Below, piece after piece: positions 29,941 through 57,800 of a stretch of DNA of 64,000 bases (its first letter is position 1; each line of letters starts with the position of its first letter). Position numbers and translations under genes: made by a program. The notes beneath the pieces were generated by a model. The model was not told the origin of the DNA. It was given only the letters and a program-made list of their open reading frames with translations, and searched no databases. The DNA is from Quercus robur. Lineage: Eukaryota > Streptophyta > Magnoliopsida > Fagales > Fagaceae. The stretch lies in contig NC_065539.1 in assembly GCF_932294415.1 (NCBI RefSeq), positions 35,008,501 through 35,072,500 of the forward strand, read 5' to 3'.

Positions 29941-30701
29941 TGTAGGGACACAAAATCTTCAGCGGCCCATCAACGTTGTTGGGCTCGCGCAAGGAAAATC
30001 CCTCACAATGATATTTGTAGAGAGTGGGCTTAAAAAAGGCCAGCGTTGGGTCGCGGGGCGGCATCTCGGGCCGGACTACAGGCATACCGACATGAGGAAG
30101 AGCTTCGGGCTGGATATTCAGGCCCTTCAATCTTGTATCCAGGAAGATTTGGCTCCTCGGATATGATCCGAGGCGTGAGGGCGCTGTTCCCAGTCACCCA
30201 TCGGTGGGATTTTAGGTGATGTCCGGCGTGTCTTATCCAGACACTCACTTTCATCAAGTCTTTCTCAAGAAGCCAGATGGGAGCCCCCCCTCCTTTGGTC
30301 ACATAACATTCTCTTTTATACTAGCCTACGTTAGTTGTCCTTCGTCCACGTGTAGGGTCGATCTTTCCGGGACAGATATCTGTCCCATCAGTCTAGTCCC
30401 AAATTTGCTGTAGATGATCCATAAAGCCTAAGATCCCGGCTTTGTTAGGGGCAGTGTTATGTCAAGGAAGGGTATTAAGGACTATTTCCATGAGATATTT
30501 TCTGACCTCTCAAGCTCGCCTGTATCCCATTTTCGTCAGTGGGGTCCTGGGCTTTCCGAGGACGGAGTGGTCCTCGGACGTGTCTTTTGGCCATATCGAG
30601 CTCACTACTTTCGGGCTTGGGACCTGGCCTCCTTTAGTTTGGGGGCCTGTGGATTCCCTATAAGTGAGCGAGCCGGGCCCGTAGATTCTTGGGCCCCCAC
30701 A
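29941..30701 (-). repeat. 3' LTR of the LARD-like element (left copy)
   Basis: TGTAGGGACAC...GGGCCCCCACA on the plus strand, 761 bp. By my reading it differs from the other LTR at one base only (G at 30410, A at 36287). Confidence 0.93.
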
Positions 30702-35815: not shown

Positions 35816-35817
35816 AT

Positions 35818-36578
35818 TGTAGGGACACAAAATCTTCAGCGGCCCATCAACGTTGTTGGGCTCGCGCAAGGAAAATCCCTCACAATGATATTTGTAGAGA
35901 GTGGGCTTAAAAAAGGCCAGCGTTGGGTCGCGGGGCGGCATCTCGGGCCGGACTACAGGCATACCGACATGAGGAAGAGCTTCGGGCTGGATATTCAGGC
36001 CCTTCAATCTTGTATCCAGGAAGATTTGGCTCCTCGGATATGATCCGAGGCGTGAGGGCGCTGTTCCCAGTCACCCATCGGTGGGATTTTAGGTGATGTC
36101 CGGCGTGTCTTATCCAGACACTCACTTTCATCAAGTCTTTCTCAAGAAGCCAGATGGGAGCCCCCCCTCCTTTGGTCACATAACATTCTCTTTTATACTA
36201 GCCTACGTTAGTTGTCCTTCGTCCACGTGTAGGGTCGATCTTTCCGGGACAGATATCTGTCCCATCAGTCTAGTCCCAAATTTGCTATAGATGATCCATA
36301 AAGCCTAAGATCCCGGCTTTGTTAGGGGCAGTGTTATGTCAAGGAAGGGTATTAAGGACTATTTCCATGAGATATTTTCTGACCTCTCAAGCTCGCCTGT
36401 ATCCCATTTTCGTCAGTGGGGTCCTGGGCTTTCCGAGGACGGAGTGGTCCTCGGACGTGTCTTTTGGCCATATCGAGCTCACTACTTTCGGGCTTGGGAC
36501 CTGGCCTCCTTTAGTTTGGGGGCCTGTGGATTCCCTATAAGTGAGCGAGCCGGGCCCGTAGATTCTTGGGCCCCCACA
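35818..36578 (-). repeat. 5' LTR of the LARD-like element (right copy)
   Basis: 761 bp, TG...CA ends, one base different from the left LTR; followed by the target duplication CTTAT. Confidence 0.93.
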
Positions 36579-36823
36579 CTTATTATTTGGATATGTGCAA
36601 TTTTTTTTTTTTATAGATTTTTCTTGTTATCTATTTGTTGGATTTCTTGGTTTAGTTTGTAAATTTTTTGGAGAGGAGGGCCAAATATATAAATTTGAGA
36701 GCCATAATTAAAATTCTTTTTGCTAATATACATACTAGTATTTTTTTTTTTTCAAAGGTTTGGGGGGGGGGGGGGGGGGAATGCCCCCCTCAGCCCTTGA
36801 GTAGTTCTGTCCCTGGTTCTAGT

Positions 36824-37182
36824 ACCATAAATTATTTCAAAAAATTTTTGCTACAATTCTGACATAACAGACTGTAAGTAGTTAACCATCACTTACACAT
36901 GGACCCACCATATTTTACTCACCAATTAATTACATACTACCGTGTCGTAATTGTGATAATAAGTTGTGAAAATTTTTATATTCCTAGACTTTTCCCTCTA
37001 AATTATTATGGTTTCAATTGTTTAGGAATTTCCCTGAGAAAGTTGACATTAAATTAATTTATCATGGGGAAGGACTCACCATAGTAGCTTGCTGCTAGAG
37101 TTCTTGAGTGTAGCCATTGGGCTAGGCACACCCCACCAAATCAAGTGTTAAAGTGATTCAAGGGTCTATTACCTAAATGGAT
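36824..37182. other. Intergenic, contains a dispersed repeat
   Basis: About 36845-37000 (TAGTTAACCATCACTT...AAGTTGTGAAAATTTTTAT...CTAGACTTTTCC) is homologous to about 63830-63985 in the same orientation. No gene. Confidence 0.5.
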
Positions 37183-37475
37183 TTTTTTTTGAGATAAAAG
37201 ATAGAAAATTTTATTAATGATAAGAAACAGTATACAGGCTGGAAAAAAGGAAGTACGTATGAGACAAATACAGTCAATTGTAACTACAGCAGCATCAGCA
37301 CAGAATATGAAAATCAACTAGTCAAAATAGATGCTAATATGGGCTGATTTCTTTGTCTTCCAAAGACAATCAGCTGCTGCTGGATATGGGCAGAGAAATT
37401 CTGTTTGCTTTCTTATGATCTTGCAATGGGATTTGAGCCATATCCAATAATTTCTGGGGATGAAGTTAGGTACTC
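37183..37475 (-). mobile_element. 3' end of an older minus-strand LINE
   Basis: Plus strand starts with a T-run at 37183-37191 and reads, reversed, as a LINE 3' tail ending TTAATAAAATTTTCTATC then poly(A). I interpret it as the 3' part of the LINE whose upstream pieces are at 41246-41289 and 49611-49960, interrupted by the plus-strand LINE and the CACTA element. Confidence 0.5.
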
Positions 37476-40400
37476 GCCGACTTGGTGAGATCAAAAAGAC
37501 CCAACGTTTTGTTTCTTATGGAGACGAAATTGTCAGTAACTGAGATGATTCCGATTAGAGATGAATTAGGGTATCGTTCTATGCTTGCGGTACCAAGTCT
37601 GAGACGGAGTGGGGGTCTGGCTCTCCTTTGGAAGGATGACATTTTGGTAGATACTCAGACCTATTCTCTTAATCATATTGATGCAAAAATCCTGGTTTCT
37701 CCACAGGTAGAATGGCGCTTGACTGGTGTGTATGGCCATCCAGAGGAACAGAGGAAGAAGGAAACCTGGGCTTTATTGCGGCATCTCCATTCTAGGGCCT
37801 CCATGCCGTGGATTTGCATTGGCGATTTTAATGAAATCTTGTCATCTGATGAAAAAAGTGGTGGTGTGCCTAAGTCACTGGGTCCTATGCAGGATTTTCA
37901 AAGCACCTTGTTGCATTGTGATCTAGTAGACTTGGGATACCAGGGGTACAAATATACTTGGCGGAACGGCAGGCCAGTAAACATGTTTGTGGAGGAGCGG
38001 TTGGATAGAGCTTGTGCGAACCCGAAATGGAGAGAGATGTTTCCGACTGCTAAAGTTAGACATCTAACGGCCTCTTACTCTGACCATGACCCTATTTTAC
38101 TCGAAACAGAGTTTGCTCCGTTGAGGCGCAGGCGAAGGAGGATCCAAAGGTTTGAAGAAAAGTGGGTGGCCCACGGGGAATGTGAAGAGCAGATAAGAAG
38201 ATCGTGGACCCAGTCCCACCCAATTGGGAGTCCAATGTTTTGTCTCTTCGAAAAGATCAAGAAGTGTCGCATGGACCTTGTGCAGTGGAGCAGGGGTGCT
38301 TTCGGAAATACCCGAGAGCGTCTTAGTGCCAAGCAACAAGAGCTGCAACAGTTGGTTCATTCCAACTATGGAGGTAATATGGAACGTATTAACCAGACAA
38401 AGAGAGAAGTCAATGAACTCATGCATAAGGAAGAGGTTTTTTGGCGACAACGATCTCGAGCTATATGGCTCCCTGTTGGCGACAAAAATACTAGATTTTT
38501 CCACCAGCGTGCAAGCCAACGAAGACAAAAAAACCAGGTTGAAGGCTTGGTTGATTCGGATGGATTGTGGCAAACAGAGGAAACTAAAGTGGCAGATATT
38601 GCAGTGGACTATTATCAGACTCTCTTCACAGCATCCGCAACTACTCATATGACCGAAGTGGTGGACAAGGTAGACAGGGTTGTGACAGATGATATGCGAC
38701 GCACACTGATGCTCCCTTACACTGAAGAGGAGGTAAGAGTAGCCCTTTTCCAAATGCATCCATCCAAGTCCCCTGGCCCCGACGGCATGTCACCATATTT
38801 TTTCCAGAAATTCTGGCACATCGTTGGCCCTGATGTCACGTCCGCTGTGTTGTCTGTTTTGTATTCTAGACGATGCCTACACAAAATGAACCTAGCCCAC
38901 ATAGTACTCATACCCAAAAAGAACAAACCTGAGCATATGAGTGAATATCGCCCCATCAGCCTTGCAAATGTGGTATCAAGGATGGTCTCAAAAGTCATAG
39001 CTAATCGTTTGAAGATGATCCTGCCAAATGTCATCTCAGATGCCCAAAGTGCTTTTGTGCCAAATAGACTTATCACCGATAATACCTCAGTGGCTTTTGA
39101 GATGTTACACCGTATGCGGAACCGACGGAAAGGGAAGATTGGGCACATGGCAGTGAAGTTAGACATTAGCAAAGCATACGATCGGGTCGAATGGAGCTTT
39201 CTCAGGCAAATAATGCTCAAGATAGGACTTCCTGTACAGTGGGTGGACATGGCCATGGAAACAGTACAAACGGCAACCTACTCGGTCCTCATCAATGGTG
39301 AGCCTCGAGGGCACATTACTCCGACCCGTGGAATCAAACAAGGTGACCCTCTTTCACCTTATCTCTTTTTGTTATGTGCTGAAGGTTTGTCCTCTATGTT
39401 GCGAAAAGCCACAGACACTAAAGAATTGCATGGCATCACCTCATGTCGGGGTGGAGTCCAAATATCACATCTCCTCTTCGCCGATGATAGCTTACTTTTC
39501 TGTGAAGCTACTCCAAGTGAATGCCATCGATTGTTGGATTTATTGGCTAAGTACGAGGCTGCCTCTGGACAGGCCATAAATCGCCAAAAGACATCCCTTT
39601 TCTTTAGCCGAAATACAAGGAATGAGGTGAAGGAAGAGATTCGAGGTTTGATGGGTGCGCAAATTATGACTGGCTGTGAGAAGTATTTGGGGCTGCCAAT
39701 GGTAGGAGGAAAGTCCAAAGTGTCCACTTTCAGAGAACTACAAGAGAAAGTCACCAAAAGGGTCATGGGATGGAAGGAGAAGCATATCTCAAAGGCGGGT
39801 AGAGAAGTGCTGATCAAAACTGTCGCCCAAGCGATTCCCACCTACTCGATGAGCCTTTTCAAAATTCCCAAAACAGTCTGTGATGGTATAAACTCTGCTC
39901 TATCCAAGTATTGGTGGGGTCAAACTAGGGAGGAGAAGAAAATACATTGGATTAATTGGGGAAGGTTGTGCACATCGAAAAGGAAGGGCGGAATGGGGTT
40001 TCGGGACATCCATGCCTTTAACTTGGCTATGTTGGCGAAGCAGGCATGGCGACTGCTACATGAAACGCACTCACTGTTTTACCGTGTGTACAAAGCTCGA
40101 TATTTTCCCTCATGCTCTTTTATGGATGCGGAATTGGGAGCAAGCCCATCGGTAGTGTGGAGGAGTCTATTACAAGCACGTGAGGTGATTAGGGAAGGTT
40201 CTATATGGCAGATGGGTAATGGACAAACGATAGGTATTAATACCCATAGGTGGCTGCCTCGACCACCAACCTTTAATAATGGAGCAGATAAAAGCTTGAA
40301 AGTGGCTGACCTCATTGATGCAACTACAAACCAGTGGGATCGAGCTAAGGTGCATGCCATTTTTGCCCCGGGTACAAGGGAGGATATCCTACAGCTCAAG

Positions 40401-41245
40401 CTAGGTAATATGACCTTGAGGGACAGACTGATATGGAAGGAAAATAAGGCAAAAAAGTTCTCAGTGAAAACGGCCTATCAGGTGGCTCTTCGACTCCACC
40501 ACCCACAATCAGGAGAGCACTCCCAAGCTAGATTGGATCAGAAGATGTGGAAAAAGATATGGGCTATAAACGTCCCTCCCAAGGTACGGACTTTTATTTG
40601 GCGTGCATGCTCTAATATCCTGCCTACCAAAGCAAATCTACTCCAAAAGAAGGTGCAGGTGGACCCCACTTGTTTTGTGTGTGGACAGCATGAAGAAACA
40701 ACGGGACATATATTGTGGGAATGCCCTCTAGCTCGTAACGTGTGGGCACTGGTTAGGGGTAAGGTTCAGAAGACAAGCTCCTGGATGCCAAGCTTCTTCC
40801 TTCTTACGAGACAGATGATGGAGAGACTATCAGGGAATGAATTTGAGCTATGGGCTATGATTGCATGGGCACTCTGGAATGCACGAAACCGTATACACTT
40901 CCAAAACACACAGACCCATCCAACTGAGATCCTCAAGCAAGCAACGGACCTGCTGATGGACTACCAGAACCTTGTTCGAGATCTTGTGCAACGGCAGAAG
41001 GCACGATGACTCTTATAGTTTTTTATCAAGGACTTTGGTAGTTTGTAAGGACTGGTGTTATTTTATTCTTTCTCTTGTACTGATTGGGCTTGTAGAAGGG
41101 GTAGGCCACGATGCATGGCTTGCATGGCTTTGTGTATTACAGCTCATCAGCCAAGTCTATATTTGTATACTCTTATTTTTCTTTTGTTTAATATACTTCT
41201 ATCTTTGACGTCAAAAAAAAAATAAAAAAAAAATAATAATATTTA
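37476..41245 (+). mobile_element. LINE retrotransposon (5'-truncated or mutated)
   Basis: Includes the 1175-codon ORF2, a 3' UTR of about 200 bp and an A-rich tail at 41212-41239 (AAAAAAAAAATAAAAAAAAA). It inserted into an older LINE of opposite orientation. AATAAT-rich sequence on both sides may be the target duplication, but I could not define it. Confidence 0.75.
37482..41009 (+). CDS. LINE (L1-type) ORF2: endonuclease and reverse transcriptase, 1175 aa
   Basis: Non-LTR retrotransposon polyprotein that nicks target DNA and reverse-transcribes its RNA. An apurinic-type endonuclease covers about residues 1-215 (METK at 13-16, IGDFNEI near 110, SDHDPIL near 200). The reverse transcriptase lies at about 470-740 (SEYRPISL, FADD at 666-669). 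A zf-RVT domain lies near 1015-1100 (CFVCGQHEETTGHILWECP). The usual extreme N terminus of the endonuclease (the WNCRG region) is not in the ORF; the upstream frame has stops at about 37461-37470, so the copy is probably 5'-damaged. No C-terminal RNase H is seen. Otherwise the long frame is intact, implying recent insertion. Confidence 0.9.
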   Translation: MVRSKRPNVLFLMETKLSVTEMIPIRDELGYRSMLAVPSLRRSGGLALLWKDDILVDTQTYSLNHIDAKILVSPQVEWRLTGVYGHPEEQRKKETWALLRHLHSRASMPWICIGDFNEILSSDEKSGGVPKSLGPMQDFQSTLLHCDLVDLGYQGYKYTWRNGRPVNMFVEERLDRACANPKWREMFPTAKVRHLTASYSDHDPILLETEFAPLRRRRRRIQRFEEKWVAHGECEEQIRRSWTQSHPIGSPMFCLFEKIKKCRMDLVQWSRGAFGNTRERLSAKQQELQQLVHSNYGGNMERINQTKREVNELMHKEEVFWRQRSRAIWLPVGDKNTRFFHQRASQRRQKNQVEGLVDSDGLWQTEETKVADIAVDYYQTLFTASATTHMTEVVDKVDRVVTDDMRRTLMLPYTEEEVRVALFQMHPSKSPGPDGMSPYFFQKFWHIVGPDVTSAVLSVLYSRRCLHKMNLAHIVLIPKKNKPEHMSEYRPISLANVVSRMVSKVIANRLKMILPNVISDAQSAFVPNRLITDNTSVAFEMLHRMRNRRKGKIGHMAVKLDISKAYDRVEWSFLRQIMLKIGLPVQWVDMAMETVQTATYSVLINGEPRGHITPTRGIKQGDPLSPYLFLLCAEGLSSMLRKATDTKELHGITSCRGGVQISHLLFADDSLLFCEATPSECHRLLDLLAKYEAASGQAINRQKTSLFFSRNTRNEVKEEIRGLMGAQIMTGCEKYLGLPMVGGKSKVSTFRELQEKVTKRVMGWKEKHISKAGREVLIKTVAQAIPTYSMSLFKIPKTVCDGINSALSKYWWGQTREEKKIHWINWGRLCTSKRKGGMGFRDIHAFNLAMLAKQAWRLLHETHSLFYRVYKARYFPSCSFMDAELGASPSVVWRSLLQAREVIREGSIWQMGNGQTIGINTHRWLPRPPTFNNGADKSLKVADLIDATTNQWDRAKVHAIFAPGTREDILQLKLGNMTLRDRLIWKENKAKKFSVKTAYQVALRLHHPQSGEHSQARLDQKMWKKIWAINVPPKVRTFIWRACSNILPTKANLLQKKVQVDPTCFVCGQHEETTGHILWECPLARNVWALVRGKVQKTSSWMPSFFLLTRQMMERLSGNEFELWAMIAWALWNARNRIHFQNTQTHPTEILKQATDLLMDYQNLVRDLVQRQKAR

Positions 41246-41289
41246 TTCTTAGCGTTCCAAATATATGGCTCATATAACATAGCCCATAT
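41246..41289 (-). mobile_element. Fragment of the older minus-strand LINE (left of CACTA)
   Basis: Minus-strand translation gives IWAMLYEPYIWNAKNKYY, matching the C-terminal region of LINE ORF2 (compare WAMIAWALWNARN in the adjacent plus-strand LINE). It continues across the CACTA insertion into 49611-49960. Confidence 0.6.
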
Positions 41290-42144
41290 CTACAAGAAAA
41301 GAGTCTACTAGCGAGGCTAAAATGCCATCGCAAAAATTCAAATATCGTCGCAAAAAACTATTAGCGAGGGCATGTGGCCTTCGAAAGCCGTCGTATTTGC
41401 TGTTGTTACTAAAAGAGATTTTGCGACCATGCCTTCACAACAACTTCTTTTTAACGAGGGCGAGTAGTCGTCGTTAACAACTATTTGTGAGGACCTTTAT
41501 ACCCTCGCAATTAGTTTTTTGTAAATTTCAAATTAACGACATACTTTTTAGAGACAAATAATGCCATCGCTAAAATTTATTTGTGAAGGCTTTTAACCCC
41601 TCGTAATTAGTTAGGAATAATAGTGACAACATTTAGCTATCACTTAAAATGTTTTTGCAATGTGTTAAGTGACATCGCTGTTCTATACATTGCGAGGGAC
41701 TTTGTTGTCATTATAAAATTATTTATGACCAAATTTTTACGTCATCAGTGATAATATTTTATATAATTTTTGAAATATTTTATTATTTATTTATTTTTAA
41801 TTATTTTATATAATTTTTTTTAACTATAATGTTTTGATAGTATAATAATTACTAAAAATTGATCAATTGAAAGATAAAAATTCATATAAGTTCAAACTTT
41901 AAAATATAGAATATACAAAGAAATCCTGAAATTAAACCTTGTTTTAAACTTAAACAACTAGAATTATGACAAGATCTATACTAGTCTTCCTACAAATGAG
42001 GGGAAGCTCCATACAAAAAGCATGTGATCTTACTATTTAATACAAAAGAAAGCCTATCTAGATCAGGTCCCTATGTATGCTAAATGAGGGGAAGCTCCAT
42101 ACAGTTGATCCCATGTTTGTGAAGTTTCAAAAGCATCAAGTTAC

Positions 42145-43050
42145 CTACAAATCACTTGACAAGTCCTTCGCAATGTCTTCAGAGAGCTTTTTCTCCTGCA
42201 TGAAAAGCAAAGCAAAGGACTTTTAAAGAAGAGAGTGGGGGTTGGACTCAAAAAAGCAATTACTGGAGAGTGAAAAAAACAGGGCAGGGGATTAAGGGAT
42301 TCAAACCTTCTCAAGTTTTTTGCAGGCTTTGAAAGCATCTCTTCTTATGTTCCTCAATGCCACCTATAAACAGTTTAGGGGAAGGTGGTATTCAAGAGGA
42401 CAAATTTAGTGACTTTAACATAGCCTATGTATTGGTCTATAACCAAAGATTAATAAACATATACATTTTTAGAATATGTGCACTTTGGTAAAGTGTACAA
42501 TGCCATGTCAAATACAGACATTGGATGAATTCCCATGTGTTTCAAGAAAGTTACAAACCCAAAAAAAATGTTACAGGCCAATTATGTCTGACTTCTCAAC
42601 CCCAAAAAATAGTGTCACTTAGGTGACACTCTTTTTGCATTTTTAACATATTTTTCATTACTTATCCCCCCCCCCAAAAAAAAGGTTTCAGGCAAGTGAA
42701 GACAGGAGGAGAAGGCAGAAGAAGGGGAACAACATAAACATGAATTAGAGGCATTTCATGAGATCTGATTTGTTCTGACAACACTACGCATATCCACCTA
42801 AGCCCAATTTTAATACTAATGAATTTACTAAAAACAGCGGCAGGTTTTTGTTTTAAATTGTCCAGAGATAATGCCACTGTACCTTCCCTTCTTCAGCCAG
42901 TTTAGCTACTATTTTTAAGAATTCCTGCAATGATTAAAATAAAATAAATTAATAAAAAGAAAAGAAAAAAAGAAGAAGTGGAAGTTCTTTGTAAGCATGC
43001 TTTAAGGAACTTCACTTCATAGTGCACATCTTCAAAAAGAAATGTGTGTC

Positions 43051-43088
<38 letters not shown>

Positions 43089-44227
43089 TTAATTTATATC
43101 AAATTACAGAAAGTAGAATTTCTTTCATCAATTACTACTAACCACCATTATTTTCAAGAATATAAAGCATTTTTTGCATTTAAATTCATTATAAATAATT
43201 ATTAAGGATACATAAACATATCACAAAACAAGTGCTAAACCGAGAAAAGTTTTAGAAGAACTAAACCTTTGAAGCAGAACAGTAGAGCAGGCCTCATGTG
43301 ATTAATTCCAAACAACTAACATAAAGCTCAAGTCATGACTCATGACAAAGTACAGAAAGTCTAAATATAACTCAATCATCTAACTCATTTCAAAGTATGG
43401 TACTTGAAGTTAATGTACATGCAAAGAGAACATTATATGTTAGATGCAAAAATGTCGTGTAGGTGAGACAGTAAGTATATTGAGCTCCAAGGAGCAACAC
43501 AAGATAGAATGAATTGACTGCAGTATAGCACCAACATCCAGGAAAAATCAGAAGAACAAAGAGGTAAAAGTAATATTTCAGCTGAGATTTCATATTAATT
43601 GGATATAGAAAATAGACTTATGGGCCTATGGCATAAAAAGACATAGAATTACATGCAAAGGGATCAAAGCCAACAAACTATACCTTCCTCCTTTATGATG
43701 TAAGTTGAGGGAGAGTCAATCTTATCACTTCTCCATCGTTGTTTGGAGTCATACCAAGATCAGAGCCCACTATGGCCTTTTCTATAGCCTTTAAGCTGAC
43801 AAACATAACATATCAAAAAGTAAAATAGATTGTCAAAGAGAGATCATATGAAAGATTTCATGGGCCATTCCTGCAATGCAAGATGTCAATGCTCTATAAC
43901 TCAAAATAATTGGACAATTGGATCACCTTTGGTTGTCAAAAATTTATGGAAGATTCACTAGCATATTAATTTACAAGAATCAGAGAAAATTTTAGTCTTT
44001 GTTCTTACTTACTAGTATACATGTATTTATCACATAAAATTAAATGGAGAATGTTTCGATCTTCCTCAACAACCATTTTATGTCCTTTAGTTTATAGAAT
44101 ACCTGGATTTGTCGTACGGCTGAACCAAGAGAGAATTTGCATCGGGAGTATTGATTTGAGCTATGCTCTTCAAGCTAACTGGACTTCAATAATATTCCCC
44201 CTAGAAAAGCATTGGGTTATAGCTAAT
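42145..44227 (-). pseudogene. Captured fragment of plastid ribosome recycling factor gene (RRF)
   Basis: Five exon-like blocks keep splice sites and order: 44227-44103 (PVSLKSIAQINTPDANSLLV), 43795-43684 ([24 protein letters not shown]), 42924-42883 (EFLKIVAKLAEEGK), 42363-42307 (VALRNIRRDAFKACKKLEK), 42195-42145 (EKKLSEDIAKDLSSDL). RRF splits post-termination ribosomes. The copy is broken: two stops and a short deletion in the first block, TAA in place of Asp before RRK, and TAG in place of the Gln after SSDL. The N-terminal exons and the C-terminal helix are missing. It lies wholly inside the CACTA element, so it was probably captured. Confidence 0.85.
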
Positions 44228-45796
44228 CTAAAATAAAGGTAATTACTTAACCATTAATAAATTACAAGTGATGATTTTGCACTTCTGCAACCTTTTTTGC
44301 AAAAGTCACCTCCTTTTTTTATAGAACCACATACGCAAACTTATGATTTTTTTTTTTTTTTTTAAAGTTGAACCCAAAATACTATGTCATATTAAGCAAT
44401 GGATGAGGTGGCTCCCCCATACATTTGTTTCTGAAAAGCTCCCATTGATTGCCACTTACAAGAGAAATTATCCTATATGCAAAAATGACAACTATTGCAA
44501 AACTAAACCACCAAAAACTATTGCAATGCTAGAATCAGCTTGAAATTTTGGAACTTCTCCTCATTTGAGATTTTTTTTTTTTTTTTTTTGATAAGTACAT
44601 TTGAGAGAATATATATATTAAATTAACAAAAAAAAGGAAGAAGAAGAAGAAGAGAAATGAAAGCAATTGATGCTACAGATTTGTAGTAAATACCCATAGC
44701 AATAAAAACCTATCTGATTTTAAACCTGAAAAACTATTTCCTGTAGAGGAATGATTGCTTCTAGTGTTGTTTGACAAACAACATGTGGGCACTCGAAACA
44801 TCAAACAAAAAAAGATAATATTGTTAAACTCTGTATGTTATGACATTGATAAGAATAAGAAAAAAAATAAAATAAAAGAACAACATAATAAATCTACGGT
44901 AATTGATAGTTGATAATGATGATGAGAATAAATAAAAGTTGAAATGAAAAGTATTAGGGTATGTTTCAGAGAAGATGACAATGCTGTTTTTCAACTTACC
45001 TGAACAACCTGAAATCGATTGGGCTGTGAGGGGCTTTACAAGTCGGTGGTGGCTGGGGATTGTGACTTCGGCGTGATGGAAGACAGAGCAGATCAATGGC
45101 GAGGGGTGGCGGCGTGAGGGGAGAGAGAAGTGGGAAATGAAAAGAAAGAAGGAAGAGAAACACGCTGAATCAACAAAAGAAGAAAAAAAAAAGGGGAAAA
45201 AAGTGGGAAATGAAAAATTGGGGGAAACTTTTTGCGGGAAGAAAAAAAAATCTGGGGGGAGAGCTTGTCCTATTGAGGTTTTTTTTTTTTTTTTTTTTTT
45301 TTTGATAAGGCTATATAATTAGAGTTTTCTTTAATAATAATAATAATAATAAAGCTTAAGTAATAAAATAATGAATTTTAGGGAGTACAAATTGAAGGAT
45401 CTAAAGGCCATGGCGATGTACAAGTCAAAGGAGCAAGAGCTTCGAATGAATATTTTGGGAAAAAAAAGTTTATGCGTGTGAGAAATTGTGTGAAGGATAA
45501 AAAAAAATGGGGAAAATTTAACTTTTAGGATAAAAAAAAAATGTTTTGTCTAATAACTATTGCAATGGGTTATAAAAATATTGCTATAGACTAGTAAAAA
45601 TTTCACATCAACATTTAAATAAATAATAAATCACATAAAAATTTTTAAAAAAAATCAATTTCTAAAATTTTAAAAAATAAAATAAGATAATTAAATTAAT
45701 TTTTTATTCCTTTCATTATTATTAATTTTTTGGAAGAAAATGTTTATGTTCTTTGTGTTCTTCAAAATATATAACTTATATTCTTAGATCAATAGC

Positions 45797-47400
45797 AATC
45801 AAACGGTTGGATTTAGAGAAAGACGCGGTCAAAGTTTAGTCAAAGTTGGTCAAACCCAATCAAACTTAATAAATGGTTTTGAGACCACTCTTGGTGAAAT
45901 TCATATTCAAATCTTGATCAATAGGATTGAAGAGTATGGCGACATACTGGTGTTGGTGAAATTTGAGACCAATTGGATAGTCAGATTGAGTAAACATAAC
46001 CATACAAGTATATGGCACATGTCTATCATGCGTCATACTTAGATTTGAAATCTAACTATTAGATTTGAAGAGTATAATGAAAGGTTAATTCTAGTAAATT
46101 ATGGTCACAATCAAACGATTTGATTTAGAGAAATGCGTGGTCAAAATTTAGTTAAAGTTGGTTAAACTCGATCAAACTTAATAAATGGTCCCGATACCAT
46201 TGGGCTTGGTGACATTCATATTCAAATCTTGGTCATTAGGATTGAAGAGTATGGTGACATATTGATGTTGGTAAAATTTGAGACAAATTGGATGGTCAGA
46301 TTGAGAGAATATATATAGCCATATAAGTACACAACACATGTCCATCACGTGTCATTCTTAGATTTGAAATCTAACTGTTGGATTTGAAGAGTGTAATGAA
46401 AGGTTCATTTTGGTAAATTATGGTCACAATTAAACGGTTGGATTTATAGAAAGACGTAGTCAAAATTTAGTCAAAGTTGGTCAAACCCGATCAAACTTAA
46501 TACATGGTCCCTGTGAGGGCTAGTTAGTCACTAAAATTATTAAAGTCAAGTTAATTGGGCCTGTGGCCCATCCGATGACGTAAAGCTGTCCGAGGAGGCC
46601 ATATCAGGTTGTTGGGGTAACCAAATGAAAGGAAGAGTAAATATCACCTAAGGTGAGTTCAGTATTCGTCCGAGGACAAAATCCTTCTTGGTAATATGAG
46701 TCCAAGGTCGACCAGACTGTCACCTTATTACAAACGTACTTCGGAGCTACGTCACCACTAAAAATGGGATAAGGGACCAATGGTAAGAAAGAGAAGACAA
46801 ACAAATATCTATAATAATAGCTGCCTTCGCATTAATTGCCTCTCAACCAACTCTCTGCCCGCATTAATGTGGAGGTGATGCCTGAGCAGTGATGAAGCAG
46901 CCTTACAGCTGGTAGTAGGAAGTTCCAGAAGGTGTTAGATGGGACAGAATGAGATCCCATGAACCCAACTTTCACGTGTGTGGTGAAGATGATATGAAGA
47001 GGGCAATATATAACATGAAAAAAAGCATTGAGAAAAGGGGATCGGAACATCAGAAAACAAAGAGTACTCGGAAGAAAGCCTTAACAACAAAAAAGCTAAA
47101 CTTGTTTCAAAAGAAAAAATTAATTGTTATATCAGTGCTAATTCATCTATAAACGTGTGGTTTAATCGTTTTTCTTTTAGAGTTAACTTAGTTCTTGGAT
47201 ACCCACGCTCTACAAATTTTATTATTTGGGCCTGTAACATACGAACCCAATACCAGTTTGGGGTCGTTACAAATTGAGTCCTTACAGTCCCGATACTACT
47301 GGACTTGGTGAAATTCATATTCAAATCTTGATCATTAGGATTGAAGAGTATGGTGACATATTGGTATTGGTAAAATTTGAGACCAATTGGATGGTCAGAA
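45797..47400. repeat. Tandem repeat, unit about 315 bp (three copies, third split by a solo LTR)
   Basis: Units start near 45797, 46108 and 46427 with ATYAAACGGTTGGATTTA, and contain GTCAAAGTTGGTCAAAC and GATTGAAGAGTATGGYGACAT. The third is interrupted at 46512-47287 and resumes at 47288. Inside the CACTA element. Confidence 0.85.
46512..47287. mobile_element. Solo LTR, 776 bp
   Basis: TGTGAGGGCTAG...GAGTCCTTACA with a perfect 5-bp duplication GTCCC at 46507-46511 and 47288-47292. Its removal restores the tandem-repeat unit (TGGTCCCGATAC). It differs from the 23305 solo LTR and the LARD LTRs apart from scattered motifs. Confidence 0.88.
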
Positions 47401-48650
47401 TTCACATCGAATTAAGAAATATAAGGTTGGGTTCAAGTTACACCCGATGTAACTCTAAAAAATATTACACCACCCAATAACTTATTATTAAATTCATATT
47501 TTAAAAATCTAACCATTGGATTACGTGTTCTATATGTTCTTAACATGTATGCCAATTTCATTGCCAATCGGATGTAATTTACCATTTGATATTTAAACTC
47601 ATATTTTATGCATTATTTTAAACTACAAAAACTTAAATTTAGACAATTGATTAATGACATGACTATTAATTTTTGATCACCTTGAAATTTTGTAAGTATG
47701 AAAAATATATGAAAATAATGTAATCTAACGGTAGATTTGTCAAAATTCATATCGAATTGAGAAATATAGAGTTGGATTCGAGTTACACCTGACGTAACTC
47801 TAAAAAATGTTACACCACCCAATAATTTATTATTGAATTCATATTTTGGAAATCCAACCGTTGGATTACATGTTCTATATAGGCTTAACATGCATGCCAA
47901 TTTTCATGCCAATTGGATGTAATTTACTATTTGATCTACAAACTCATATTTTATGCATTATTTTAAACTACTAAAACTTGAATCTAGACAATTAATTGAT
48001 GAAATGACTATTAATCTTTGATCACCTTGAAATTTTGTAAGTATGAAAAATATATGAAGATAATGTAATCTGACGGTAGATTTGTCAAAATTCACATCGA
48101 ATTAAGAAATATAAGGTTGGGTTCAAATTACACCTAACATAACTCTAAAAAATGGTACACCACCCAATAACTTATTATTGAATTCATATTTTGAAAATTC
48201 AATTGTTGGATTTCATGCTCTATATGTTCTTAACATGCATGCCAATTTTCATGCCAATCGGATGTAATTTACTGTTTGATCTATAAATTCATCTTTTATG
48301 CATTATTTTAAACTATAAAAACTTGAATTTAAACATATGATTGATGACATGACAATTAATATTTGATCACCTTGAAATTTTATAAGCATGAACAATATAT
48401 GAAGATAATGTAATTTAACGGTAGATTTATCAAAATTCACATCGAATTAAGAAATATAGAATTTGGGTTCAAGTTACACGTGATGTAACTCTAAAAAATG
48501 ATACATCACCCAATAACTTATTATTGAATTCATATTTTGAAAATCCAACCATTGAATTACATGTTCTATATGTTCTTAACATGCATGTCAATTTTCTTGT
48601 CAATCAGATGTAATTTACCATTTGATCTATAAACTCATCTTTTATTTATT
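47400..48650. repeat. Tandem repeat, unit 345 bp, about 3.6 copies
   Basis: Units begin ATTCACATCGAATTAAG at 47400, 47745, 48090 and 48435, exactly 345 bp apart. Each contains GTAACTCTAAAAAATG, CACCCAATAACTTATTATT and TTTGATCACCTTGAAATTTT. AT-rich and noncoding; within the CACTA element. Confidence 0.92.
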
Positions 48651-48960
48651 ATTTTAATTAGAAGAGATTTTTATTCACTTGAGAGAGAGAGAGAGAGAGT
48701 ACAAAAGGCTGAAATTCTTGAATTTTAGGCTATCATTTTGAAGTTGAAAGTGCTATCATTTTTTTATGGGTACAATTATTTAGAAAAGAAGGACAGACCT
48801 TTATTATATAAGATGTATATAAAAGTTTTTTTTTAGATTGTAAACAAAAGGTTCATCTAAAGAATACAAAGTGCTATATGTTTATAAGTTTCTTTTTATA
48901 TTTTCTTTGAATTTTAGAATAACTTTTATCTCCAAAAAAAAATTAATATTTTAATGATTT

Positions 48961-49560
48961 TTTGTGAAGGTCAATCATGGCCCTTGCAAATAATTTAGTG
49001 TTAGTAAGGGCATATTTTTAACCCACACAAAAAATAAACTCTTTTCAAGAGATTTTTATTGTCCCTCGGAAATAATTTGGTGGGAACATTTTTCTCCAAA
49101 ATTTTTGGCATTTTAATGATTATTTGTGAAGGTCGATCCTAGCCCTTACAAATAATTTAGTGTTAGTAAGGGCATATTTTTAACCCACACAAAAAATAAA
49201 CTTTTTGCAAGGGATTTTTATTGTCCCTCGGAAATAATTTGGTGGGAACATTTCCCTTCAAAATTTTTGACACTTTAATGATTATTTGTGAAGGTCGATC
49301 CTAGCCCTAGCAAATAATTTAGTATTTGTGATGGTTTTTTTTTAACCATCACAAATAATATACTTTTTGCGAGAGATTTTTAATTGTCCCTCGCAAATAA
49401 TATGGAGGGAAAATTTCCCTCCAAAATATTAGTATTTGTGATGGCTATAACACATAATTGAGACAACTTTTCTTGTTGGTCACAAATATTTCACATTTTA
49501 CCAAGTATTTGCAAGGGTTTTATTTTGCCATCACAAATAAGATTTTTTGAGAGGGCTTTT
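48961..49560. repeat. CACTA subterminal repeats, 162-bp period
   Basis: TTTGTGAAGGTC recurs at 48961, 49123 and 49285, then a diverged copy at about 49433. Units contain CCCTCGSAAATAATTTGG and AACCCACACAAAAAATAAAC. They end just inside the right terminus of the CACTA element. Confidence 0.85.
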
Positions 49561-49610
49561 TGGGTCCGTCAAAAATTCTTGGTCGCTAATAGGCATTTTT
49601 TTTTGTAGTG

Positions 49611-49960
49611 TATTTCAGCTTCTTCAATATTGCACTCCAGGCAAGCTCTATTAAACAGACCAAAAAGGTCAGTGACTATGTCATTAGGCCATTTTTGTAT
49701 TTTGTCTCTCACCAAAGCCCAAACATTTCTAGCTAAAGGGCATGACCATAGTGCATGAAGCATTGTTTCATCCTCCTGTTGACATATCTGACATTTTGAT
49801 TCTGCTACTATTTTCCTATTTTGCAAATTCAGAAAGACAGATAAATAGGGAGAGGTAAGGGGGGGTTGAAGGGTGAAAAAATTACAAGTAATGGATGTTG
49901 TTTGAAAAAGTCCCATTTTCTTTAATTTTTTCAACTGTTTGAGCATTGGTGCCACCTTCC
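49611..49960 (-). mobile_element. Older minus-strand LINE fragment, zf-RVT region (right of CACTA)
   Basis: Minus-strand ORF to 49955 contains CQICQQEDETMLHALWSCP and ARNVWALVRDKIQ, the zinc-binding C-terminal domain of plant LINE ORF2. At 49611 it joins the 41246-41289 piece across the CACTA insertion. Confidence 0.8.
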
Positions 49961-50067
49961 AATTGAAGAAAACCTACCATTTGGAAGGAGTATAGAACTG
50001 ACACCTTACCAAAAGCAAAATTGAAACTTAACACATTCTCTATGAACATAGGAATCCAGATACAAAC

Positions 50068-52176
50068 CAGGAGGCCTGTCTTTCACAGCAGCCAATCAAA
50101 CAGCGAAGGCAATTGATTCCCTTGTGGCACCTCGTCCAATATCTCCACTCATGGGGTCGCCATCCAACTTCATTTCATGAACTATATTAGATAGATGGAT
50201 TTTTTGAAAGGAAAAGTAAAATTTGGATTGATGATATCATTCGAAACTTATTTAAACAGTTCAGATGGGTTTCAGTTAAGAGAGGACAGACCTGCCATAA
50301 ATTGAAGCAAGGTAGCTAGATTAGGTTCCATAATAGAGTACATCGTGTTCATTGAGGACATGGTTGAATCCCCAATATTAGGTAAGCTAACCTGGAGCCA
50401 GAAAGTATTAATTCACAATCCTCACTATACTCGACAGGAAACTGCTTTACAACTTAGTGTCAAACATTCACACACACGCACACTGTTAGTCTCAGATGTG
50501 CAATTGAATCTCCCAAGCCATCCCAAAGTTCTTCAAATAAAGCAGTCTGCCTACAGAAGGGTTCAGTTCATGCAATGCGTCAATGCCTAGATTTGGATGA
50601 AACTCAATTAGATATAGTCACATTTAGATATTTCCTAAGAATTGAGGGGAAATAAAAAGTTCTGTCCTTTATAAGGTATGGCAGTGAAGTATATTAATTT
50701 CTCATAGCATTTGAGGTGAGACAACTACAATCACATGTATAGTTTTAGACTTAGCACAGGCTCCTTTTCAGGAGATATTTTTCAGTCTTTTTACCTTTGT
50801 CATTAAAGAGGATAAAATTCTATTGCAAATGCAATCAAAACAAAATAATAGATCCCATACCCCTTCTCCCCTCATCTATTTAAATTATATACTATCTATT
50901 TTGCATTATAATATGTTTAATATAATCATGAAATAGTACCTTCCACTTGTATGTATCTCCACAGCATCAATACCATTTCTCTTTATAAGATCAGCTGTAG
51001 CAGTAGTATCTCTTATATATGTAACCACCCCTAAACAAGTTTGTGAGATTAAACGTGAAAATAATGAAAGAGATCTAATTGAAAACACTAGAAGAGGAAG
51101 AATACACGAGTTTATGATTTCAAATGTAATTAAGATTGGAATCTTAATGAAGGCTTCAAAAAGAAATAAAAAAGAGGCTACATAGCCTATGTTAAGGAAA
51201 ATCAGCCGCATGACGAAGGAAAGTAACACCCACTAATATTACTGTAGGGGCAAACTGGAAAGCAACGGCCACAGCCATAACAGCGTCCAGTTATAACTCC
51301 ACCCTGCACATTATGTCAAGTATAAATGGCAAATGTAATCCATGATGAACAATAGGGTGTGCAGTTAAAAATCAATCAAAATGAATCAAGTACACAAACC
51401 TTTAAGAATTTAGATGCATTGGTACCATTCAAAACTTCTAATGTAGAGTTTCCTTCATTGAGTGATAGCAGGACAAACAATCTCACAAGGCCTTGAACAT
51501 TCAAGTGGACAATCCTCCAGATCAAACTCTATTAAAGTGGCCAGAAGTCAGCTTAAACAAATTGCAAAAGAATTCATATATGAGCATGTTATTAAGTGGC
51601 CAGTGTAACCTAAGACCTACCCAAATTTCCAACCTCATACATTAGGCTTTCCCTTATTCATACTGTATTGCATTAACCAAAAATATACTATGGTCCATCT
51701 AATCTGCACAATTTTTAAAACCATGACATCAGATGCTTCATTGACCCTAATGCTTTGCTTGTCTAACTATATCAAGAAAATAATTGTCTTCGTGATTGAG
51801 CTGAATTAAAGATTGACTCTCCCAAAAAACTCGCTAATTCATTAGTCATAATTCTGTATCAAGCCAAAGTCTGATTTACATAAATGACACGATAATTTGT
51901 ATCTATGGTATAAAAACACTTGCAAATCTTATTCAATTGATTGCACACACTATACTACATGAGCTTCTGCAGTAGCTGGTGCTAATAAAATAAGACACTA
52001 CTAATTAAACCAATGCAAGGAGGCATGTATACCAGCCTTTCGGAAGTGAAGATCTTCATCATCATTGACGCTGATCATTACCCAAGGCCTTCTAAGGCCA
52101 ATGTCTCTAGCCGATTTAATTCCATCATTCACTGCACTCACGACTGCCACTTCAGCAGCACAGTCAATGCAATCAA
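50068..52176 (-). pseudogene. Broken gene for an LdpA-like iron-sulphur protein (plastid circadian-period-factor family)
   Basis: Exon-like blocks on the minus strand: 52176-52033 (AVNDGIKSARDIGLRRPWVM), 51528-51400 (EFDLEDCPLECSRPCEIVCP), 51303-51234 (GRCYGCGRCFPVCPY), 51030-50940 (VVTYIRDTTATADLIKRNGI), 50391-50292 (SMNTMYSIMEPNL), 50167-50068 (MSGDIGRGATRE). Two Cys clusters of 4Fe-4S type are visible. The arrangement matches plant proteins related to cyanobacterial LdpA, an Fe-S factor that sets circadian period; this family call is from memory. The second block has a frameshift after CPA, the last block has TGA in place of Arg after AFAV, and the N-terminal exons are absent. Confidence 0.7.
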
Positions 52177-52277
52177 CTGCACAACCATTCGTTAAAAACA
52201 CATGATTCACATTCACTTACATCATATCACACACACAAACACAAACACTAGTTTACACCAGTCTCAACCTTGGACTA

Positions 52278-52490
52278 ACAACCAAGGCGCCAGAAAGTCC
52301 TTAGAGATGCTGCTGTGTTGAGAAGCTGCCAAAGACAGTGTCAGAAAAAGACACCGGAGCCGCCCATAATGGTTGGCATGGTTACTCCTTTAAAACAAGT
52401 AACAAGAATTCATGGAGGATATTAGACTCACATGAAATATTTTCCGAGGAAACAAACAAAGCCTCTGATCCAAACACCCTCTGTCTCGTA
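52278..52490. repeat. Direct duplication of the NPG-like 5'-UTR exon, copy 1
   Basis: About 210 bp matching 53977-54190 in the same orientation, with shared blocks GTCCTTAGAGATGC, GAAGCTGCCAAAGACA and GCCTCTGATCCAAACACCCT. It lies upstream (minus sense) of the LdpA-like fragment. Confidence 0.85.
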
Positions 52491-53029
52491 GCACAATGTA
52501 CTGCCCTTAATATAATTATAAACAATGACCATCCAGAAAGAAAGGCAAATATATCTAAAACCGGATAAACCTACTAAGGAATTCTCATTGTCAGAGCCAC
52601 TTCCACCTCAAAATGACTTTACAAGTGTACAGCTAAATGACAGTAAAACAAAAAATCATGGCCTGTTTGGTTCGTATGAACTTGAATGGCCTACTTCATT
52701 TTGTCTTACCATATTATTTAAATTCATATCTTAAATGGAGCAATCAGAAACAGGTTGAAGTATTTACTACAATGTATGGATAAATCATATCTATAAATTT
52801 TCCCATTATAATGCTCAATTTGTTCATTGAAGATCATACAAAGTGACAAATGTAGCCATAAAAAATATCATAGTATGACCAAACAGGCCCTTAGTATACC
52901 ATGAAAATTGATACAGATGTTTAGAATTTTTAAAGTAGTCCACAGCTAATAGTAAAATGAGTGCATATCAGTTTATATATAACAGAAACAAAAATACATC
53001 AGAAAAGGCAAAATAAAGATATCACTAAC

Positions 53030-54190
53030 CTCCTAGTTCAGATAACCACTCTCACGAAGAAAACACTCTGCTTCTTCAATGTTGCTATTGTCCACCTTTG
53101 TTTCCATCTCACCAGCTCGGGATGAATAGCCACTTGCTAAATAGTGCCGAGTCGCTAAGGACTCCATCGAATATGAACCCTTTCATCTACCTTCAATTGC
53201 TCACCTGAACAAATACACTTCATCACCTTCTGCAACCTCCCTCGAATGATAATTACTCCCTTATTCATCCAATTCTTAAGTCTCATACCGGATCAATCCA
53301 CTTGAAATTCTTCTAAACTAGCATCAACCATAGAACTAAAAATCAGAACCCAGAAATTACCCAACACCCCAGCTCATATAAGTGCTCATAAATTCTTAGA
53401 TCATGAGCAAAGTGTTAGTGCTCAACCAGTGAATTCTTGAAGTACTAGATTTCATAGGTCAAAACGAACTAAGAAAATAAAACTACTCCGAAACTCAAAC
53501 TTTCAACAAGTTTTCTTTATCGGTTCCTTTTCAATTATGTTATGAAGCTTATGCTATAAACAAGTCTAATTCTGAATCCTACCATCCAGGATTCGAACAT
53601 CAAAATTATATAATGACATGAAAAACCAACTTAAATTTCTGCAACCCCAATTCACAAATTTATCAGAATTCGCCAACAAGAAACCTTAAGCACCACAATA
53701 GCCCATCAAAGATGAATAAAAGAAGAAAGTTTAGAATATATATATAAATAAATAAATAAATAAAAAACACCCAGAAGAATCCAATAACAACCCAGATGAA
53801 GTACCACAGCATATTTACACAACAACTTAGAAGAAAGAACAGGAGATGAAAACAGCATCTAAAGAAGGTACCTTTTGGTTAAGAAAAAGCATTGACTGAG
53901 CCCACCAGACATCAAAACCACCGTGCATCTCTCCAGTTCCTCCGACAAAAAAGGACCCTTGATTTTCTCTTGCTAAACAACCACCGCGCCGGAAAGTCCT
54001 TAGAGATGCCGCTGTGTTGAGAAGCTGCCAAAGACAATGTCAGAAAAACCAACCGGAGCAGCCCATATTGGTCGGCATGGTTACTCCTTCAAAACAAGTA
54101 ACAAGAAATTCATGGAGGATGTTAGATTCACAGGAACTATTTTCCGAGGAAACAAAGAAAGCCTCTGATCCAAACACCCTCACTGTCTCC
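53030..54190 (-). pseudogene. Broken 5' part of an NPG1-related TPR protein gene
   Basis: A noncoding exon (about 54190-53872, donor AAAAG|GTACC) and a first coding exon (53229-53030) are visible. The coding exon starts MKCICSGEQLKVDE and, after a frameshift, continues ESLATRHYLASGYSSRAGE and NIEEAECFLRESGYLN before TAG. This matches the N terminus of the NO POLLEN GERMINATION family of calmodulin-binding TPR proteins. The frameshift after DE and the stop where the family has Tyr (LN-Y-EEAR) inactivate it. All later exons, and so the TPR region, are missing. Confidence 0.7.
53977..54190. repeat. Direct duplication of the NPG-like 5'-UTR exon, copy 2
   Basis: Partner of 52278-52490. This copy keeps the downstream donor-side sequence and is therefore probably the source. 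Confidence 0.8.
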
Positions 54191-54249
54191 GTATTCAGTT
54201 TAACCCACCCAACTGGGGGGTTTATGCCAAGAGACTAGAACCCAAGCTT

Positions 54250-54894
54250 TCACAATATTTACCTTTAAATTCAACTCCTTTTTTGATGCACAGTTTGTAG
54301 ATTTTATGATCAACAACTCCATTTCTGTGTATTGGCTATAAGGAAATAGATCGATGTTCCACTTTTGCTGGATAAGTGGTAAGGGTGAGGGGGCTCCTTA
54401 TCAGCAGAACTATTAATAGATCTTAAGATAACTACGCATGCAGAGATTCTCTCTATCATTTTGAAAAAGCATGTAAGTACATTTATTGTTTCCTATAAAT
54501 GGAAACAAATACCAAATACACTTTGTTTTGCAAAACACGTTTCTAATATTTCTTTAGTAATTTAAAACTTGTTATTTGTCACCTCAGAAAACGAAAAGGG
54601 AAATAATAAGAAAAGCAGCGAAATAATCGGAAGGCAAATTGGCATGAATGACATGTAATGTCCTTTCACAACCTCTAGCTTTCTCGTTTTCTTCGCACAA
54701 CAACGTTGGCACCCAACACTCATTCCTTAACACAATAACGTTGTCACGATAACCAACCAAACCACCATTTTCTCTCCCTTAATTTTTCTCGCTCTCTCTC
54801 TCTCTCTCTATCTCGCAAATATCGTCCTCTACTTTAAGGAGAATATGCAAACCCAGCTGGTTGCCCCCGATATCTGACTTTCCTCCCATCCACC
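54250..54894 (+). promoter_or_regulatory. Promoter and 5' UTR region of the DUF810 gene
   Basis: Non-repetitive sequence ending in a CT-rich leader (CTCTCTCTCTCTCTATCTC at about 54790-54810), typical of plant 5' UTRs. The start codon at 54895 is in context CACCATGGGA, close to the plant consensus. No clear TATA box in the last 200 bp. Confidence 0.5.
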
Positions 54895-57800
54895 ATGGGA
54901 CACCACACTCGTCGTGAGTCCCTTTCGGCTCCTCACGTCGCTTCACGCCCTGATCACTTCCATGAGGCCTTCATGGCAGACCTCTTATGGCCCTTTGGAA
55001 AGCTCGAAGGTATTGAACGTGACGACGTTAGAGAAACAGCCTATGAAATATTCTTCACGGCGTGCAGGTCGTCTCCTGGCTTCGGTGGTCGCAATGCCCT
55101 CACTTTTTACTCATCATCCAATTCCCATAATGAACATGGTGGGGAGGGTTCGTTGTTGCCGCCATCCTCGGGGACTAATAAGCCTGGTGGGGAGCGTGTG
55201 GTGACGACCCCCACGAGTCGGGTGAAGAGGACATTGGGTTTGAAGATGTTGAAGCGGTCGCCTCAAAGAAGGATGTCAACTGGTGCCGGGGCAGGTGGTG
55301 CAGCTCCTGCTCCTCCTCCGTCTTCCGGTGGTCATGGTGGACACACTTCTAACTCTAGTAGTCCTGGGTATTCATACACCGTGCCGCAACCGGTTAGGCC
55401 AAGGCGGCCGATGACTTCCGCCGAGATCATGAGGCAGCAGATGCGAGTGACAGAGCAGAGCGATAACAGGCTCAGAAAGACCCTTATGAGGACCCTCGTT
55501 GGCCAGGTACGTCTTTCTTTGTTTTCTTTTATTTTTTATTTTTTTAATCCGAAATTTGAATATTGGAAGCGTTGAAAAAAATTAAAAAGTGCCAATTAAG
55601 CTATACAACCCTTTTACAATTTTAATAGTATATGTTATGGGACAATGTGGTGGTGTTCTCTTCCTGGTTTTTTAGGATGTTGATGAAATTGCTGTTTTTA
55701 AAAGGTCACAGACTTTTCCATCAAATATAGAAAGGTAGGGTCATTGTATTTGTATTAGTGCATATGTAGGCACTTCAAGGCAAAAGGATAGACAATAAGG
55801 AAGCAAACAATGAAATTAGAAAACAAAGCAAATAATCACAATAATTTTAATCTTCTTTCTCCACATTGTAGCATCACCCATTTTAGAATCATGTTGTAAT
55901 TTTGGAAACAGGTAATCACATAATCGGTACTAGAATGAGATGAATGAAAACATTATATTCAATCAACATTAGAGTCTCTGAATGCGGATTGAACATCACA
56001 TTGTTTAGTATAAATTTAAATACAAAATATTCTACAAATTAACTTGACAATAAACGTGATTAGTACCCAATTTAAAGACAAGTTTCCCCATTTGATTCAA
56101 CATTGTAAACTTGCTTATTGATGTGAAACAGATGGGTCGGCGAGCAGAGACGATAATACTTCCGTTAGAGCTCCTCCGCCACCTAAAGCCATCCGAATTC
56201 AATGACTCCCATGAGTACCATCAATGGCAAAGGCGTCAGTTTAAAATCATGGAGGCAGGGCTTCTTCTCCACCCTTCAATCCCCTTAGACAAATCAAACA
56301 CCTTCGCTATGCGTCTGAGGGACATTATCCGAATTAGCGAGACAAAAGCAATAGACACTGGCAAGAATTCCGACACCATGAGAACGCTTTGCAATTCCGT
56401 AGTATCCTTGTCATGGCAAAGCTCCAATGGAGTTCCCACAGATATTTGCCATTGGGCTGATGGGTACCCTCTCAACATCCACCTCTACGTCGCTCTTCTT
56501 CAATCAGTATTTGATATCAGGGATGAAACTTTAGTCCTTGACGAGGTTGATGAACTTCTAGAGCTAATGAAGAAAACGTGGTCAACATTGGGAATCACAC
56601 GGCCTATACACAATTTGTGTTTCACTTGGGTGCTCTTTCAGCAATACGTCGTGACTGCACAGATAGAACCAGACCTTCTTTGTGCTTCGCATGCTATGTT
56701 GACAGAAGTGGCAAATGATGCCAAGAGACCAGACCGAGAGGTTACATATGTAAATATCCTGTCTTCAGTATTGACCTCAATGCAGGGATGGGCAGAGAAG
56801 AGATTGCTTAATTACCATGACTATTTCCAGAGGGGAAATGCTGGCCAAATTGAAAACCTTCTTCCTTTGGTGTTATCGGCCAAAAGGATTTTAGGCCATG
56901 ATTTTACAATCACTGAAGGGGCTGGGGAAGAGGAACGAGAAATAACCTTAGTGGACTCATCTGGAGATCGTGTGGACTTCTACATTCGATCATCTGTGAA
57001 AAACGCATTGACCAAGGTCTGTAAATAGTTTTCCTGATAACAATGTTGACAAATTTTTTCTAAATTTGTTATGGGTGAAATATCACTTTTTGCATAGGAC
57101 TATCACTGACAGTCTGACATCAATTTTATTGTACACCAATCACAATGTACCATCTCAGCACTAGTGAACAAATGTTGTGAAATTTGTTGTCATTCAACTT
57201 ATGGTTTTCTTAATTATCGAGTTCATGCTCAAGTTTTAGTGCAGTTTTGATTTGATGTTATCTGTCATCTTATTCTTTGGTTAATGACAACAGATAATTG
57301 AAAGTGGGAATGTCAAAAGTGATACTGCTGAAGTGAAACAAGAGGCAAGTGAAGCTTTGCTTCAATTGGCTAAGGAAACCGAAGATTTGGCATTGAAAGA
57401 GAGGGAAATCTTTAGTCCCATACTCAAGAAATGGCACCCAACTGCAGCTGCAGTCGCCGCTGTCACGCTACATAACTGTTACGGAGCTGTGTTGAAAAAA
57501 TATTTAGGGACAGTGTTCATGCTCACAGCTGAGACAGTTGACGTACTGCAGAGGGCTGGAAAGCTGGAAAAGCTTTTGGTCCAAATGGTAGTTGAAGACT
57601 CTGCTGAGTGTGAGGATGGAGGCAAAGCAATTGTACGAGATATGATTCTATATGAAGTTGAATCAGTCATATTGAACCTCTTGCAAAAATGGATAAACGA
57701 AAGGTTGGAGAAAGGGAAAGAGTGTTTCCAAAGAGGGAAAGAAACTGAAGTAAGTTCTTTACTTTGGAACAATTTGGCATAGAAATTAAAGCTTCCATAG

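Follow-up and report, generated by a model that had tools for sequence, protein, structure and literature searches.

The soybean CACTA element Tgm-Express1, located in F3H in the wp allele, is described as 5.7 kb in length and as containing exon and intron pieces of five genes (PMC1947982). For Pack-CACTA elements, published accounts put forward a model in which adjacent elements with compatible ends move together, so that the DNA between them becomes cargo (PMC8903248, PMC13317346). We have studied a locus of this kind in a 64,000-nucleotide stretch of Quercus robur DNA (NC_065539.1, positions 35,008,501 to 35,072,500 of the forward strand; the window, numbered here from its first letter), where exons of a plastid ribosome recycling factor (RRF) gene lie inside a block at 41290-49610 with CACTA-like ends. 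Our best explanation, to which we assign a probability of about 0.85 on the basis of the sequence, is that the block is a single non-autonomous CACTA-type DNA transposon of Pack-CACTA-like character, which sits in an old remnant of a LINE (long interspersed nuclear element) and carries an intron-bearing copy of five internal exons of plastid RRF.

The borders of the block and the interrupted host sequence are the following.

41287-41289, no strand: left copy of the target site duplication, TAT, placed by the highest LINE score on joining the flanks with a single TAT
41290-41323, plus strand: left terminal inverted repeat, CTACAAGAAAAGA..., with the first two bases CA absent, placed by end alignment
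41290-41769, no strand: left subterminal region, with seven GYGANGG-type repeats in 480 bp; its inner border is a round number and an unmeasured edge
49575-49610, minus strand: right terminal inverted repeat, CACTACAAAAAAAAATGCC..., placed by end alignment
49611-49613, no strand: right copy of the target site duplication, TAT
49614-49973, minus strand: older LINE remnant (zf-RVT), the host, cut by the element; its frame resumes at 41289-41241

The right terminus, read on the minus strand, is CACTACAA; the left terminus begins CTACAAG and is two bases short. The left end sequence is CTACAAGAAAAGAG, and if CA is placed in front of it, 29 of the 38 alignment columns match the right end. Without the two added letters the end-to-end match is 27 columns. 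Membership of CACTA is recognized by terminal inverted repeats starting with CACTA, which are present here with one end damaged, and by a 3-bp target site duplication, present here as TAT on both sides.

The subterminal regions provide further evidence. The motif TTTGYGANGG occurs ten times in the 64 kb, twice within the left 480 bp of the element and eight times within its right 700 bp, with none elsewhere. Both orientations are found, giving direct and inverted subterminal repeats as in CACTA (En/Spm) elements. In 100 shuffles the mean number of occurrences was 1.05 and the largest was 4, a background that applies to a motif picked after viewing the sequence. The 13-base end pattern CACTACAAGAAAA, allowing up to two mismatches, has 11 matches in the window against 4.58 expected, and none of 100 shuffles gave as many. 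Taken alone this pattern proves little, because just two of the 11 matches are element ends. In our view the case for a CACTA-type block is carried by the subterminal motif and by the empty site described below, and not by the 13-base pattern. The initial annotation had placed an element with CACTA-type ends at 41290 to 49610. These bounds agree with the ends and the TAT flanks that we observe, and the type of end is borne out by the inverted repeats, the subterminal motif and the TAT, CA having been lost on the left.

Does removal of the block leave an intact host sequence? When the flanks are joined with one TAT the LINE frame is restored (...CLECNIEEAEI running directly into WAMLYEPYIWNAKNK), and the joined frame aligns to residues 1056-1141 of the LINE open reading frame (ORF) at 37470-41009 with a score of 73.6 bits. 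Against the same ORF the right flank alone scores 60.1 bits, and the left flank alone finds the matching LINE stretch at an expectation value (E) of 0.007. The Pfam match to zf-RVT in the ORF at 49569-49973 belongs to this host LINE, and not to the element. The position of the cut was examined by scoring 121 right-hand offsets on the LINE frame, the twelve cuts listed all being multiples of three. The TAT cut was the best of the 121 by a small margin, followed by cuts giving 73.2 (at -6), 72.0 and 71.6 bits. Reading the left end as AT instead of CA breaks the LINE frame, with a score of 62.4 bits. The frame supports removal of the block, and it fixes the TAT duplication weakly because alternative in-frame cuts score nearly as well. 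Since removal of the block lets the frame pass from 49614 to 41289, 41290-49610 most likely entered the LINE as one unit. The same continuity bears on a quite different origin, in which a relic RRF pseudogene or a segmental duplicate came by chance to be flanked by two separate CACTA ends. The ends are indeed imperfect, with the full CACTA kept at one of them, but chance flanking is hard to reconcile with a LINE frame that resumes after removal of the whole block, and we regard it as extremely unlikely.

The LINE at 37470-41009 contains an open frame of 1179 amino acids with domains for endonuclease, reverse transcriptase and zf-RVT. Near 41211 the A-rich tail of this LINE adjoins the older antisense LINE remnant, and because that remnant is in turn interrupted by the CACTA element, several insertions are stacked at this place.

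The RRF exons in the element are listed from the 5' side of the gene.

44103-44200, minus strand: exon A, 98 bases (GEYY, then the stop TGA, then SPVSLKSIAQINTPDANSLLVQPYDKS)
43684-43795, minus strand: exon B, 112 bases (36 residues), with one stop, TAA
42883-42924, minus strand: exon C, 42 bases (EFLKIVAKLAEEGK)
42307-42363, minus strand: exon D, 57 bases (VALRNIRRDAFKACKKLEK)
42145-42195, minus strand: exon E, 51 bases (EKKLSEDIAKDLSSDL, then TAG), with the donor TAG/GTAACT

All five exons are preceded by AG and followed by GT, and the spliced frame runs through 120 codons without a shift. Scored with a weight matrix for the general plant consensus, the five donors rank 6-22 among the 395 GT sites of the element, and the five acceptors 1-46 among its 351 AG sites. 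Four GT-AG introns are retained between the exons, and the RRF piece is therefore a genomic copy, not a retroposed one.

A query of 119 residues, with X at two stops, was compared with solved structures. Two chloroplast RRF chains matched it over 118 residues without gaps: residues 51-168 of the 191 in 6eri_Az, at E 4.2e-54, and residues 129-246 of the 271 in 5mlc_9, at E 9e-54. Identity to the chloroplast RRF sequence, which we take to be that of spinach, is 93 of the 118 aligned residues. The next solved chain bears only the name Ribosome-recycling factor and has E 3.6e-32; among chains labelled mitochondrial the best reaches E 1.1e-06. Evidently the RRF domain is of the plastid type. The Pfam family RRF (PF01765) matches both stop-free halves, with E 1.7e-21 and 1.8e-12. 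Plant RRF probes match exon A at E 0.002 and exon E at E 8e-5, and an E. coli probe matches exon B at E 5e-8 and exon D at E 0.42; exon C by itself was matched by none of the RRF probes.

Three of the 120 codons are in-frame stops: exon A has TGA, exon B has TAA, and exon E closes with TAG. In view of these stops, and without any frameshift, the RRF copy is a pseudogene, and the element makes no intact RRF protein. Neither the N-terminal part of RRF nor its C-terminal end was found with the probes, from which short diverged exons could escape, and outside the RRF exons the N- and C-terminal probes gave nothing better than E 0.076. Comparison of the element with the whole window at E 1e-3 revealed no second copy of any RRF exon in either orientation, a copy that might have given hairpin potential. 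A search of IMG/VR for relatives of 61 RRF residues gave 49 pattern matches, none of which was confirmed by tblastn.

Five consecutive plastid RRF exons with introns and splice sites had been proposed in the initial annotation, and the AG/GT borders of all five, together with the chloroplast RRF matches, are in full accord with this. The span given there, 42145-44227, is correct at 42145; at its other side 44227 should be 44200, where the most 5' exon ends. Capture at the DNA level in place of retroposition is upheld by the four introns, while the further step, that RRF entered by CACTA transposition rather than by a separate nested event, is one that we infer. RRF homology running past the CACTA ends had been named as a finding that would contradict capture; none was seen with the probes or within the window at E 1e-3. 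To that description we add the three in-frame stops, the absence of both ends of the gene, the 319- and 345-bp arrays and a solo long terminal repeat (LTR).

An exact 22-bp direct repeat (41994-42015 and 42082-42103) lies just past the last RRF exon, possibly near an edge of the captured segment.

How might the RRF exons have come to lie within the element? They would have been picked up at the DNA level before insertion, most plausibly through the mobilization of two neighbouring elements with compatible ends as one, as in the published Pack-CACTA model. Cut-and-paste insertion of the element into the old LINE remnant would then have made the TAT duplication, and the captured RRF piece would have decayed into a pseudogene. 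An alternative is that the fragment came with another transposon, a Pack-MULE, hAT or Helitron, which inserted into the CACTA element; the latter already hosts one nested insertion, the solo LTR. A scan around the RRF exons for such carriers, with inverted ends and duplications of 8-10 bp, found five candidates, where ten shuffles gave one candidate in one case and none in the other nine. The shuffles keep dinucleotides and not local AT richness, and the scan covers carriers with inverted ends. However, four of the five candidates fall in a single pair of AT-rich stretches (41774-41802 with 45640-45699), the fifth starts outside the element (41239), and the best matches at 18 of 24 end bases. 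We consider a nested carrier unlikely.

Several points weigh against capture by a single CACTA element, the reading that we prefer. The left end lacks CA, and the RRF piece could have arrived on another element nested in the CACTA. The LINE frame also survives if TAT is left twice, with a score of 69.3 bits, and in-frame cuts elsewhere reach as much as 73.2 bits. The borders given to the captured segment are provisional, and so is the placing of capture before insertion. The search for transposase, finally, took in 20 of the 39 ORFs of at least 50 amino acids that overlap the element, scanned with Pfam.

No transposase domain was detected in those 20 of the 39 ORFs, and the longest ORF inside the element has 164 amino acids. 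Non-autonomous members of CACTA lack transposase, and this criterion bears on autonomy only. As to other captured genes, the scan gave, besides zf-RVT of the host LINE, three matches below the cut-off (E 0.014, 0.076 and 0.22), which we judge to be chance. Rfam gave no match at the gathering score over 36000-55000. The arms of the long inverted repeats I1 and I7 are AT-rich and not nested, which led us to reject these repeats as ends of an internal element.

The remaining contents of the element are mainly repetitive.

45796-46511, plus strand: 319-bp tandem array, 2.3 copies, resuming after the solo LTR at 47287-47399
46512-47286, plus strand: nested solo LTR, 775 bp, TG...CA, with duplication GTCCC; when rejoined, the site aligns to the sister unit of the repeat
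47394-48657, plus strand: 345-bp tandem array, 3.7 copies
48948-49427, plus strand: three tandem copies of a 162-bp repeat in the right subterminal region, with the TTTGTGA motif
45000-45200, minus strand: putative second captured piece, a pyrimidine-rich, ATG-free, first-exon-like stretch; its upstream border is arbitrary

The solo LTR interrupts the 319-bp array, and its empty site can be seen in the sister repeat unit around 46180. The nested solo LTR and the tandem arrays show the element to be composite and probably old. With its left end two bases short it is probably immobile now; the loss of CA, the nesting of the solo LTR and the three stops together suggest an old copy that probably no longer moves.

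A protein-like stretch lies on the plus strand inside the element at 45356-45460 (REYKLKDLKAMAMYKSKEQELRMN). The part at 45356-45442, which RRF C-terminal probes match weakly (E 0.32 and 0.62), was considered as a missing RRF exon and dropped, since it is on the opposite strand and a 35-residue peptide over it has no match in Pfam, nor to a solved structure at E 10.

The stretch 45200-45000 ends in CAG/GTAAGT, which at 12.3 bits ranks first of the 395 donors of the element, the next scoring 8.8. It may resemble a non-coding first exon, possibly from a second captured gene or as the transposon's own 5' untranslated exon. This donor, the best of the element, lies upstream of the RRF exons and in the same orientation, as would be required if the element formed a transcribed chimeric unit in which a first exon at ~45200-45000 is spliced to the RRF exons to give a regulatory RNA. 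Yet the donor 9-mer arises in 34 of 100 window shuffles, which weighs against the exon reading, and the three stops rule out an intact RRF product; such a unit seems improbable. The fragments that have been captured by maize Helitrons, Pack-MULEs and Sireviruses are described as sources of small interfering RNA able to silence donor genes (PMC13317346), and given this precedent a small-RNA effect of the RRF piece on its parent gene would be reasonable in general. It is very doubtful that a chimeric non-coding unit, made of a captured first exon (45000-45200, minus strand) and five sense RRF exons, acts here through spliced RNA or small RNAs to tune the nuclear gene for chloroplast ribosome recycling.

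The window has a G+C content of 35% and looks like plant nuclear DNA, with a LINE, a PATROL1-like gene and an LTR-like repeat pair near the element. The repeat pair consists of 763-bp direct repeats (29939-30701 and 35816-36578) that are 99.9% identical, and we take them for the LTRs of a young LTR element. They enclose a 78-bp array of five copies and an 81-bp array of 21 copies with 95% matches; the length of the 81-bp unit is divisible by three, and the unit leaves long open frames on both strands. The PATROL1-like domain is in a plus-strand open frame at 58262-59254 (E 1.2e-143). Further large direct repeats, of 82-88% identity, are found at 16450-17782 and 20836-22509.

The observation is real, and its reading as capture is very likely. 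Like the element described here, Tgm-Express1 belongs to the CACTA superfamily and holds captured exons and introns with splice sites kept, but its exons are described as spliced into the transcripts of a live host gene (PMC1947982), whereas here one gene is identified, with three stops, in a dead LINE. In grapevine, two Cactavine-5 copies reportedly contain part of a PPR gene, a comparable capture, though that family is presented as having a transposase-encoding region and a length of 21-25 kb, unlike our element (PMC2528002). CACTA-like elements of Chenopodium are described as carrying both kinds of cargo seen here, gene fragments together with satellite-like tandem arrays; the fragments there are placed upstream of 'TAD', a conserved coding domain that belongs to the element, and we found no domain of that kind in the present case (PMC8978399). 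The Pack-CACTA and Pack-TYPE elements of Arabidopsis, rice and maize, as characterized in the accounts cited, share the CACTACAA ends, the non-autonomous state and the carriage of coding DNA; the element here differs in that it also contains tandem arrays and a solo LTR (PMC8903248, PMC13317346). Host coding DNA between CACTA ends, the mark of Pack-CACTA, is present in the form of RRF. In a limited search of the literature no prior case of RRF as CACTA cargo turned up, and plastid RRF may be new in this role. Capture by CACTA elements of gene fragments with introns has already been published, so the element is one more member of a well-known class and leaves the understanding of how CACTA elements work unchanged. 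Within that class it provides a base-resolved case of gene capture at the DNA level, with an internal sign of insertion in the restored LINE frame.

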